A stretch of DNA of 64,000 bases, taken from the NCBI GenBank assembly GCA_002009475.1, contig AYTS01000126.1, positions 1 to 64,000 of the forward strand. Direction: 5' to 3'. Source of the DNA: Candidatus Brocadia carolinensis (lineage in GTDB: Bacteria; Planctomycetota; Brocadiia; Brocadiales; Brocadiaceae). The translations under genes and the position numbers were made by a program. This document shows positions 23,839 through 43,118 of this stretch, piece by piece; position 1 is the first letter of the stretch, and every line of letters begins with the position of its first letter. The notes beneath the pieces were generated by a model, which did not search any database, was not told where the DNA came from, and saw nothing but the letters and a program-made list of their open reading frames with translations.

Positions 23839-24407
23839 CGCCACAGAGGTCACAGAGGTCACAGAGGTTACAGAGAAAGACTATGGATTTGTTGACAGAA
23901 CAGATTATTTCAGCGGCAATAGAAGTTCATCGTATCCTGGGCCCGGGTTTACTGGAATCCATTTACGAAGAAGCGCTCTGTTATGAATTTTCACTAAGAG
24001 ACATTCCTTTTGAGAGACAGAAGGAACTCGATGTTGTTTATAAAGACAAAGTAGTTAAAGGACAGAGACTTGATTTGCTCGTGTTTGGAGAAGTAGTAGT
24101 TGAGATCAAATCTGTCCGCAAGTTAGAAGATATTTTTACGGCTCAAGTACTCTCATATCTTAAAAGTATGAAACTTAAACGGGGATTGTTAATAAATTTT
24201 GGAGAATGAAAACTTGTTGATGGAATTAAACGAATTTCGTTATAACTTTAAGTTATGCCACAGAGGGCACAGAAAACACAGAGTCATAAAGAAAATTGTG
24301 TTGTACAATCAACACTCTACGAATAAAACTACTGAATTAGAAACAAGTATTTCAACTATTGTCTATTCTCTGTGTGCTCTGTGCCCTCTGTGGCTGAATA
24401 GTTAACC
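23839..24407. mobile_element. Transposase-less GxxExxY cassette inserted at the cas1 start
   Basis: The 569-bp segment lies between two copies of ATGGCTAATCTT. Its left end (GCCACAGAGGTCACAGAG, 23840-23857) and its right end (24376-24393) are inverted repeats matching at 17 of 18 positions. It carries a GxxExxY gene. A second CACAGAGG arm near 24256 pairs with the right end, forming an inner hairpin. No transposase is encoded, so movement would need a helper in trans. The 12-bp direct repeat looks like a target duplication. Confidence 0.75.
23883..24209 (+). CDS. GxxExxY-family protein, cassette passenger with an early stop
   Basis: A 108-residue GxxExxY protein with IISAAIEVHRILGPGLLESI (the GLLESIYEE form of the name motif), FERQKELDVVYK and VVVEIKSVRKLEDI, which has the look of a PD-(D/E)xK-like fold. 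The function of the family is not established. The in-frame TGA at 24207-24209 is followed in the same frame by KLVDGIKRISL, which is the normal family C-terminus (compare VLKEGICRIAN in the copy at 45510). The gene therefore seems to have lost its last 14 or so codons by a nonsense change. Confidence 0.78.
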   Translation: MDLLTEQIISAAIEVHRILGPGLLESIYEEALCYEFSLRDIPFERQKELDVVYKDKVVKGQRLDLLVFGEVVVEIKSVRKLEDIFTAQVLSYLKSMKLKRGLLINFGE

Positions 24408-26343: not shown

Positions 26344-26491
26344 GTAACAATTTAGTTTTTTGAAAATCCCAATAATAACGATGTTTACCATACCGTGTAG
26401 GGGCGAAGCATTTGCTGTAATTGGCACTAACACGTCCATACCCAAGCGGGCAAATGCTTCGCCCCTACTTTTTCAAAAAACTAAATTGTTA
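26344..26491. mobile_element. MITE-like element with nested inverted repeats
   Basis: The ends are inverted copies of GTAACAATTTAGTTTTTTG (26344-26366 and 26468-26491). Inside, GTAGGGGCGAAGCATTTG near 26397-26415 pairs with its inverse (GCAAATGCTTCGCCCCTAC, 26450-26469). At 148 bp without a gene, this is the form of a miniature inverted-repeat element. A single end of the same type lies at 51742-51762 inside the cbiQ-like gene. Confidence 0.75.
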
Positions 26492-26786
26492 CGTAAATAG
26501 TTATTTACGAATTAGCAACTCAAAGCAACACTGAAAATACCGTTTGCCATTGAAATGCAATGATGAGACACTGACAAACAGAGTTTGTCAGTGCCACCCT
26601 CTTGTTTCAATTTATCTGTATACATCAGTGCCTTTGCTTCCGGGGAAAACACACAACCCCCCCCTTAAATCGTCCTTTGTTCATGGGGACTATAAAGACG
26701 GTTCCCAGGGTGGCACGGATACACTTGTTTATCCGTGCTTGGTAGGATTCAAAATAGGCACAACCAAAACCTGGAGAAAATAAACC
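26492..26786. other. Intergenic region upstream of the CARF nuclease gene
   Basis: It contains three hairpins: CGTAAATA/TATTTACG at 26492-26509, CACTGACAAAC/GTTTGTCAGTG at 26569-26593 and GCACGGATA/TATCCGTGC at 26713-26738. The last two belong to the same family as the palindrome at 10464-10487. No gene is supported. Confidence 0.6.
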
Positions 26787-29830: not shown

Positions 29831-30227
29831 AATGAACCACAAAGACACAGAGGGCACAAAAAAGTAATGAAGAATGAGGAATGAAGAATGATCAATGAAA
29901 TGGAGAAAAAATATATTGCTCATTACTCATTGTTAATTGAACATTGCCTTTCCGCTTGATGAATAAGGAACTGGAAGTAATGAAGAATGAGGAATGAAGA
30001 ATGATCAATGATCAATTAAATGAAAAACAATAAATTGATAATTGCTCATTGACAATTGATCATTGCTTTTCTGGCTTGATGAATAAGAGACTGAGATTTA
30101 ATGAACAATTAAGAATGATCAATGATGAATAAAAGAGGCGAAAAGATACGAATTGATAATTGTTCATTGTTAATTGATCATTAATAATTGAACATTGATA
30201 ATTGATAATTGTCCAAGGAGGGTTGTT
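29831..30227. repeat. AT-rich repeat tract with two degenerate CRISPR repeats
   Basis: Downstream of the second cas1 comes a CACAAAG-type repeat end (29835-29857) and then AATGAAGAATG and AATTGATAATTG units. Two sequences, CTTGATGAATAAGGAACTGG at 29955-29974 and CTTGATGAATAAGAGACTG at 30075-30093, match the 3' half of the CRISPR repeat at 25881. This looks like the wreck of a second array or a spread of repeat-carrying elements. Confidence 0.65.
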
Positions 30228-30584
30228 ATGGGAAACAAGGATATTGTGGATAGGACTTATAGTTTTGCGCTGAGAGTTATAAAGTTAGTTAGCTCTTTAC
30301 CTCATAACAAGGTATGTGAAGTAATTGGTGGTCAATTACTCAGATCCGGGACATCTGTAGGCGCAAATATGGAAGAGGCACAGGCAGCATATAGTAAGAA
30401 AGAGTTTTGTAATAAAATCGGGATTTCTCATAAAGAAGCGCGCGAATCTAACTATTGGTTGAGATTATTAAAAGATAGTGGACAAGTAAAAGCGGAACTT
30501 ATTAAAAACATTACTTCGGAATCAGAAGAGATTGTTAAGATTTTGTTCTCGATCGGAAAAAAATCAAAAATGACCGTAAAGTAA
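30228..30584 (+). CDS. Four-helix-bundle protein (23S rRNA IVS / TIGR02436 family)
   Basis: A 118-residue protein from the ATG at 30228 behind GGAGGG. FALRVIKLVSSLP, IGGQLLRSGTSVGANMEEA and KEARESNYWLRLL are the standard pattern of the four-helix-bundle family that was first found in intervening sequences of 23S rRNA. The function is unknown; it may bind RNA or DNA. It sits between AATTGATAATTG repeats on both sides. Three further members or fragments occur in this window. Confidence 0.88.
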   Translation: MGNKDIVDRTYSFALRVIKLVSSLPHNKVCEVIGGQLLRSGTSVGANMEEAQAAYSKKEFCNKIGISHKEARESNYWLRLLKDSGQVKAELIKNITSESEEIVKILFSIGKKSKMTVK

Positions 30585-30625
30585 TTGATAATTGATAATT
30601 GATAATTGATAATTGAACATTGTTT
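30585..30625. repeat. Tandem AATTGATAATTG repeat
   Basis: The 10-base unit ATTGATAATT is repeated about four times directly after the four-helix-bundle gene and ends GAACATTG. The same unit lies just upstream of the gene. Confidence 0.75.
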
Positions 30626-33606: not shown

Positions 33607-33738
33607 ATCGATTATTTTCTTGATACTTTGTAATTCTTGGGCGTATTTTCAAACACTGCCGTCTGTAGCAAACAAGATCGGACAATAGACACAGAATTTG
33701 AGGGCTGAAAGGCTGTTAGGATACAGCAGGGGGTGAAG

Positions 33739-34273
33739 CCCCATAAGCGCTAAGTTAAAATTATTGATTCATTTAACCGTGTAATGAATAACGAATATCG
33801 AACAAGGAGTTTAGAATTATGAAGTTTTCTTATCCTCCCTTTGTTTCGCAGTTTTTACGCGTGTTACAAAAATTGAACCAAGCTCATCATTCTCAAGAAT
33901 CAGGGGTTCAAGCTTTGACGCTGGCCTTATGAGATTGGCTTTTACCATCATCAATAACCATATCCTTGTTTCACGCAACTCCTTAAGGCAGACTTTCATC
34001 TTGTGGATAAAGTCAGAACGAGATTCTGCACTTTGAGCTTCACCATATTGGGAGCGGGTGACGTACCGCAACGAATAAGTTGCCCGGCAAGGTGATTTCC
34101 CGTTCTTGTTTTTGGCAAGGATTCCGTTGTACGAATAATTCTTACGGTAAAATCTACCAAGCGTTCTTCAAGATCAAATATTCTCTTATCCTTCGACATT
34201 CATTATTCCTTGTTCGATATTCGATATTGAACTCCAGGTAAAAAATATCAAAAACAACTTAGCGCTTATGGGG
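33739..34273. mobile_element. IVS-like cassette: four-helix-bundle gene in nested perfect inverted repeats
   Basis: Outer arms of 18 bases (CCCCATAAGCGCTAAGTT at 33739-33756 and its inverse at 34256-34273) match perfectly. Inner arms of 17 bases (CGAATATCGAACAAGGA at 33792-33808 and its inverse at 34207-34223) also match perfectly. The four-helix-bundle gene lies between them. The transcript would form a long stem with the gene in its loop, as in the intervening sequences of some 23S rRNAs. No transposase is present. Confidence 0.75.
33817..34199 (-). CDS. Four-helix-bundle protein, split by one missing base as read
   Basis: The first frame reads IRTTESLPKTRTGNHLAGQ and IRCGTSPAPN; the second continues YGEAQSAESRSDFIHKMK and ELRETRIWLLMM. 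They join if one T is added at about 34046 (AATATGG to AATTATGG), giving 127 residues. The pattern is that of the TIGR02436 four-helix-bundle family. Most breaks in this window are surplus bases, so the missing base here is an exception. Confidence 0.78.
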
Positions 34274-34434
34274 TGAAGCCCATACGTGTTACGTTGTTGA
34301 ATACAGAATATGTGAGAATAGAACAGATTGATACGAGGTTTCTTTGTTGGACTCAACCAGAACATTTCGTCTTGATGTGAGGTTAAAATGATACAATAAT
34401 TACTTTTGGCTTCAGTTTCCACAAGCTCCCGCCA

Positions 34435-42589: not shown

Positions 42590-42739
42590 TTTTGGATCCT
42601 TTCGTAAGAAATATGGGTAAATTTCCTGTAACTGTAAATGTTAAAAATCAAAATGTAAAATGACAAATCAAAATTCATAGATGAATTCAAAAGACGAATT
42701 TATCAAGATACCCTTGACGCAATTAATCTTATTGATGAG

Positions 42740-43024
42740 TTGTCAAAAGAGAAAACCACTGAGATCTTTGGTAATCAACTCCTTCGGAGTTCCACCAGTA
42801 TTGGAGCTAATATTGTAGAAGCCACTGCCGCAAGATCAAGAAAAGACTACACAAATTTCTTTAATCACGCACTTAAGTCAGCCAACGAGACCATATTTTG
42901 GTTGGGATTACTCAGAGATTCAGGCAAAGTCGATAAAAACAAGGCTAATAAACTTTTGAAAGAAACGACCGAGATTGCCAATATACTAGCTTCCAGTATC
43001 CTTACCTTAAAGGGGAAGAGATAA
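42740..43024 (+). CDS. Four-helix-bundle protein, unclear 5' end
   Basis: IFGNQLLRSSTSIGANIVEA and ALKSANETIFWLGLLRDSGK are the TIGR02436 pattern. The frame remains open upstream to 42659 with plausible residues (FIDEFKRRIYQDTL, AINLIDEL), but without an ATG. An ATG at 42660 would join if one base were added near 42666, so the start may be affected by an indel. The gene is flanked by short inverted repeats (AAAAATCAAAA at 42643-42653, TTTTGATTTTT at 43045-43055), like the other cassettes, and lies between cheW and a chemoreceptor gene. Confidence 0.75.
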   Translation: MSKEKTTEIFGNQLLRSSTSIGANIVEATAARSRKDYTNFFNHALKSANETIFWLGLLRDSGKVDKNKANKLLKETTEIANILASSILTLKGKR

Positions 43025-43118
43025 TTTTGCAGTTTGATAGGTACTTTTGATTTTTGATATTTATCGTTTTCAGATTCTGATTGTTCGTGCATTTTATAAA
43101 ATAAACGGGAGAAAAAAA

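Follow-up and report, generated by a model that had tools for sequence, protein, structure and literature searches.

Between leuS and a dihydrofolate-reductase-like gene of Candidatus Brocadia carolinensis lies a small minus-strand gene enclosed by two nested inverted repeats, which we analyzed within the 64,000 nucleotides of contig AYTS01000126.1 at positions 1 to 64,000 of the forward strand (the window). The outer arms, 33739-33756 (CCCCATAAGCGCTAAGTT) and its exact complement at 34256-34273, are perfect over 18 bp, and the inner arms have perfect cores of 17 bp (CGAATATCGAACAAGGA and its complement; see table). Letter-by-letter checks confirmed both pairs. Inverted repeats perfect over 17 bp or more within 700 bp never arose in 20 Markov-shuffled windows; the real window has these two and a small number besides. 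The enclosed gene matches TIGR02436/PF05635, the four-helix-bundle (4HB) family 23S_rRNA_IVP. The arms, the 4HB gene and the intergenic location thus stand as described in the original prediction, although the gene is frameshifted in the window copy; its two ORFs lie out of frame with each other because one T of the copy on contig C90 (L008), where the gene is whole, is absent.

Features of the nested element and its flanks (window coordinates)
Feature	Position	Strand	Remarks
Dispersed intergenic repeat used as target	33628..33741	+	Insertion-free copies in relatives (L233-L236)
Left copy of 11-bp target-site duplication, GGGTGAAGCCC	33731..33741		Same as 34271-34281; other copies have other 11-mers
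Left terminal inverted repeat of IS4-family cassette, CATAAGCGCTAAGTT	33742..33756	+	Homology of other copies ends here; ends shared with IS4 elements
Inner arm: degenerate 7-nt repeat array downstream of gene	33784..33823	+	Perfect 17-bp core 33792-33808
C-terminal part of 4HB gene, shifted frame	33817..34071	-	PF05635 E=4e-6; TIGR02436
N-terminal part of 4HB gene, ATG start	33996..34199	-	Frame lost near 34044-34049
Inner arm: inverted 7-nt repeat array upstream of gene	34199..34228	-	Perfect core 34207-34223
Right terminal inverted repeat of IS4-family cassette	34256..34270	-	Pairs with 33742..33756
Right copy of target-site duplication, GGGTGAAGCCC	34271..34281		Pairs with 33731..33741

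Inverted arms built from 7-nt repeats, like the inner pair here, accompany most of the full-length 4HB genes in this genome, and the heptamer changes from one locus to the next. Arms were scored as the best inverted match between the upstream and downstream flanks, using other ORFs of the same loci and mispaired flanks as controls. Across 74 4HB genes of the order the median score was 32, against 17 for other ORFs (Mann-Whitney p 6e-24) and 17 for mispaired flanks; 65 of the 74 exceeded the control 95th percentile, each with a locus-specific heptamer, and clear arms were missing at nine. The period in the 4HB flanks is exactly 7 (0.378 and 0.341 vs 0.264). Similarly, 11 of 12 plasmid-borne 4HB genes, from Cyanobacteriota, Bacillota, Bacteroidota, Chloroflexota and Spirochaetota, exceeded the mispaired-control 95th percentile (25.45), the twelfth, from Anabaena, falling just under it at 25.0. 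The original prediction expected similar arms around other 4HB genes. Arms of the inner, heptamer type are found at most of them, but no other 4HB gene of this genome has a pair like the outer 18-bp one. This argues against reading the 18-bp arms as the stem of a 4HB gene or of a 23S rRNA intervening sequence (IVS). As a separate observation, heptamer hairpins without an ORF that match the inner arms occur elsewhere in this genome (L027, L033 and L035, around 1450-1600), and are possible arm-only derivatives of the cassette.

Heptamer arms of this kind may instead be ordinary intergenic simple-sequence repeats (STRR-like) among which 4HB genes merely lie, as arrays of heptamers are found dispersed in the genomes of cyanobacteria, Beggiatoaceae and Xanthomonas (PMC4679880; PMC4692102) and solo arrays are present in this genome. 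We consider this explanation unlikely, since the two arms of a locus match each other in inverted orientation on either side of the gene and change from one locus to another, as the gap between paired and mispaired medians reflects, and since the homology of copies in different contexts stops at the arms. The resemblance to STRR-type repeats of cyanobacteria and others is thus one of 7-nt tandem arrays between genes, with the difference that the heptamers here are paired as inverted arms around 4HB genes. In the open-access literature searched, we found no published link between 4HB genes and heptamers except in the rRNA IVS of Coxiella, where tandem heptamers lie directly upstream of the 4HB ORF (PMC4990558).

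The inner cassette (about 33784-34228) also recurs in other contexts. Two copies in genome G012 and one in G002 share the window cassette at about 85-91% DNA identity, and in both G012 copies the homology starts and stops at the heptamer arrays, with IS4 ends absent. Cassette-length homology in different contexts was likewise found for other 4HB types in G027 (L285/L306/L307 and L304/L311) and G005 (L329/L341). Moreover, dN/dS of the 4HB genes was 0.02-0.17 in nine of ten comparisons (0.51 in the remaining pair), pointing to purifying selection and hence to a protein that does something. For an inner-type cassette without an IS4 shell, no exact presence/absence pair was obtained. Collectively, these data support IVS-type cassettes moving outside rRNA, on the strength of the inner arms and not of the outer ones, and it is in this form that the mobility advanced in the original prediction finds support.

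Two further 4HB cassettes lie in the window. The one at 30246-30566 on the plus strand, with arms of (TTGATAA)n-type heptamers at about 30136-30211 and 30582-30615, adjoins tRNA-Ala upstream of leuS; in nine other members of the genus no 4HB cassette was found upstream of leuS, and the flank there is not alignable. The other occupies 42710-43012 on the plus strand (arms 42630-42653 and 43045-43068), and its orthologous site is occupied in both G005 and G009; the G009 occupant is a 4HB cassette distinct from this one, with heptamers of its own, (AAACCCT)n. Additionally, L001 and L315, as well as L337 and L341, are orthologous intergenic sites with flanks 84-91% identical and cassettes that are not alignable at the DNA level, as if cassettes had been exchanged at fixed sites.

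With an IVP/S23p-type ORF (PF05635) between inverted inner arms, the cassette resembles the 23S rRNA IVSs of Leptospira and Coxiella that carry an S23p/IVP ORF. Unlike them, it lies outside any 23S rRNA gene and within an IS4 shell, and the heptamers of the 4HB cassettes surveyed here differ from locus to locus. The original prediction had also named the 23S rRNA genes of this genome and of relatives as places to look for the same element. In this genome it is not there: the single 23S gene found, which spans 3003 nt and aligns to the full 2925-position model, has no 4HB insert, and all 4HB matches fall elsewhere.

The outer arms belong to a different kind of element. A DNA search of the genome returned four copies of a 529-bp unit (33742-34270 in the window) at about 98% identity, on contigs C126 (the window copy), C168, C90 and C113, the last truncated at one end; for full copies, matches end at CATAAGCGCTAAGTT...AACTTAGCGCTTATG, give or take target bases. 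The outer 18-bp arm consists of a 15-bp transposon end and three target bases, the target starting with GGG and finishing with CCC. An 11-bp target duplication flanks the window copy (GGGTGAAGCCC on both sides) and likewise the C168 copy (GGGATCAAGGG on both sides). The ends begin with CAT and these two duplications are GGG-N5-CCC-like, within the 10-12 bp range; the IS231 subgroup of IS4 is marked by CAT ends, a YREK motif and 10-12 bp duplications (PMC2266710). Clean target duplications were also sought for the C90 and G019 copies and none was found, their flanks being unmatched, so not every copy represents a clean insertion. A transposase is absent inside the cassette, where the 4HB gene is the sole gene. 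Judged by sequence comparison, the 18-bp arms are the terminal inverted repeats of a mobile insertion cassette of the IS4 family, IS231-like and non-autonomous.

Candidate partner elements share these ends. Searching the genome for the 15-bp end with two mismatches allowed located an IS4-type transposase fragment on C205, near the contig end, adjoining the end CATAAGCGTTAACTT; PF01609 and the IS4 family model both match its C-terminal part, which contains the YREK motif (IYRGRWQIELVFKRLK). No complete, autonomous IS4 element bearing such ends was found in the 209-contig draft. Genome G020, from the same family, has about 20 copies of a 1384-bp IS4 element with ends CATAAGCGCTAACTT and a YREK transposase, and perfect 11-bp duplications flank 16 of the 17 copies tabulated. 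The cassette end is identical to the G020 ends at 14 of 15 positions and to the C205 end at 13 of 15. A scan of public genomes recovered many pairs of the 15-bp end, chiefly in Desulfobacterales and Brocadiaceae, spanning 81 bp upward and mostly without a recognizable 4HB gene. Of 26 such pairs, drawn mostly from other genomes, 14 agree at no fewer than 9 of the 11 duplication positions, compared with 3 of 650 mispaired controls. Both arrangements occur under the same ends: MITE-like elements whose length leaves no room for an intact 4HB gene show the same 11-bp duplications, and a 602-bp element in Desulfatiglandales (L207), with an 11/11 duplication, carries a 4HB gene with heptamer arms whose protein is 55% identical to that of the C90 copy.

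Sites without the outer element, whose absence from relatives would have counted against the original prediction, do exist. The window copy's left flank is a dispersed repeat of which insertion-free copies occur in four relatives. The region downstream of leuS does not align in relatives, and the search for an orthologous empty site therefore turned to the C168 copy. That copy sits in another dispersed repeat, of 92 bp, of which this genome has further, uninterrupted copies, the best of them aligning at 90% identity through the insertion point. The gene pair flanking it has an intergenic region without the element in relatives, measuring 206 bp in G002 against 704 bp at the C168 site.

The 4HB protein might be thought to act on the 18-bp ends as the mobility factor of the outer element, with the resemblance to IS4 a coincidence. 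In related cassettes the gene is indeed whole and evolves under purifying selection, and this genome's sole transposase adjoining such ends is fragmentary. Nevertheless, full IS4 elements have these ends, same-ended elements that could not accommodate an intact 4HB gene also carry the 11-bp duplications, and one frameshift is common to three copies at different sites, indicating that a broken gene travelled and that movement of the shell does not need its own intact 4HB protein. We therefore reject 4HB-driven mobility of the shell as very improbable, while noting that 4HB protein from other copies may help in trans. The least probable explanation is that both arm pairs form a single stem of a 23S IVS relocated between genes, in which the 18-bp arms mark the terminus of the element or the place where its RNA is processed. 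This explanation can draw on the protein family shared with IVS ORFs (PF05635) and on a predicted RNA of the whole unit that folds as one long hairpin (z = -6.7), but is rejected since the outer arms and their 11-bp target duplications recur in transposase-bearing IS4 elements and in MITE-like elements lacking a 4HB gene, since the remaining 4HB genes of this genome lack such arms, and since the one 23S gene found in it has no 4HB-bearing IVS. The IVS architecture of the original prediction accordingly fails for the outer arms, whose role as the end of an IVS is contradicted, and is retained for the inner ones.

Taken together, we favor, at a probability of roughly 85%, two nested mobile units: an IS4-family shell and, as its passenger, a heptamer-armed 4HB cassette akin to 23S rRNA IVSs. 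A full IS4 element with the same ends would supply the DDE transposase in trans; the enzyme would recognize CATAAGCGCTAAGTT, excise the shell and reinsert it with an 11-bp duplication of a GGG-N5-CCC-like target. The passenger, a 4HB gene with inverted heptamer arrays, would be a mobile unit in its own right, on a plan common with 23S rRNA IVSs. In its transcript the heptamer arms may pair as a stem with the ORF in the loop, and RNase III may cut this stem as it does in rRNA IVSs, in which case insertion between cotranscribed genes would be nearly neutral. The 4HB protein may act on the element's own RNA or DNA during spread. In the window copy, where the gene is dead, the cassette would spread as cargo of the IS4 shell. 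Opinion is about evenly balanced, in our assessment, on a broader reading, namely that heptamer-armed 4HB genes are one large, cross-phylum class of mobile cassette, of which rRNA IVSs are the members that landed in rRNA, with arrays made or renewed by transposition, perhaps helped by the 4HB protein.

MIC231 elements carry a passenger gene in place of the transposase, and the IS231A target is GGG-N5-CCC-like. The window cassette is similar to MIC231 and to the MITEs of the IS231/IS4 family in being non-autonomous, with CAT ends, 10-12 bp duplications, a GGG-N5-CCC-like target and a passenger instead of a transposase; it differs in its host group and in its passenger, an rRNA-IVS-type 4HB gene with its own repeat arms. 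Telling this known kind of transposon shell apart from the inner cassette matters for questions that date from about 1990, the mobility of IVSs and the role of the four-helix-bundle protein. Inverted heptamer arms flank the majority of the free-standing 4HB genes surveyed here across six phyla; they provide a defined element boundary and point to a widespread, little-described kind of mobile cassette.

Seven of the plasmid 4HB cassettes (L344, L345, L347, L348, L349, L351 and L352) are placed between genes of defense or modification operons, the surrounding genes including cas1/cas2, DISARM drmD, type I restriction, DUF1156/Swt1-HEPN and N-6 methylase. Other small repeats are also present in the window: in a MITE- or REP-like nested hairpin at 26344-26492 the outer (AACAATTTAGTTTTTTGAAAA) and inner (GTAGGGGCGAAGCATTTGC) arms are both perfect, and at 24257-24394 an inverted repeat that is perfect over 17 bp or more (GCCACAGAGGGCACAGA) is possibly another small element.
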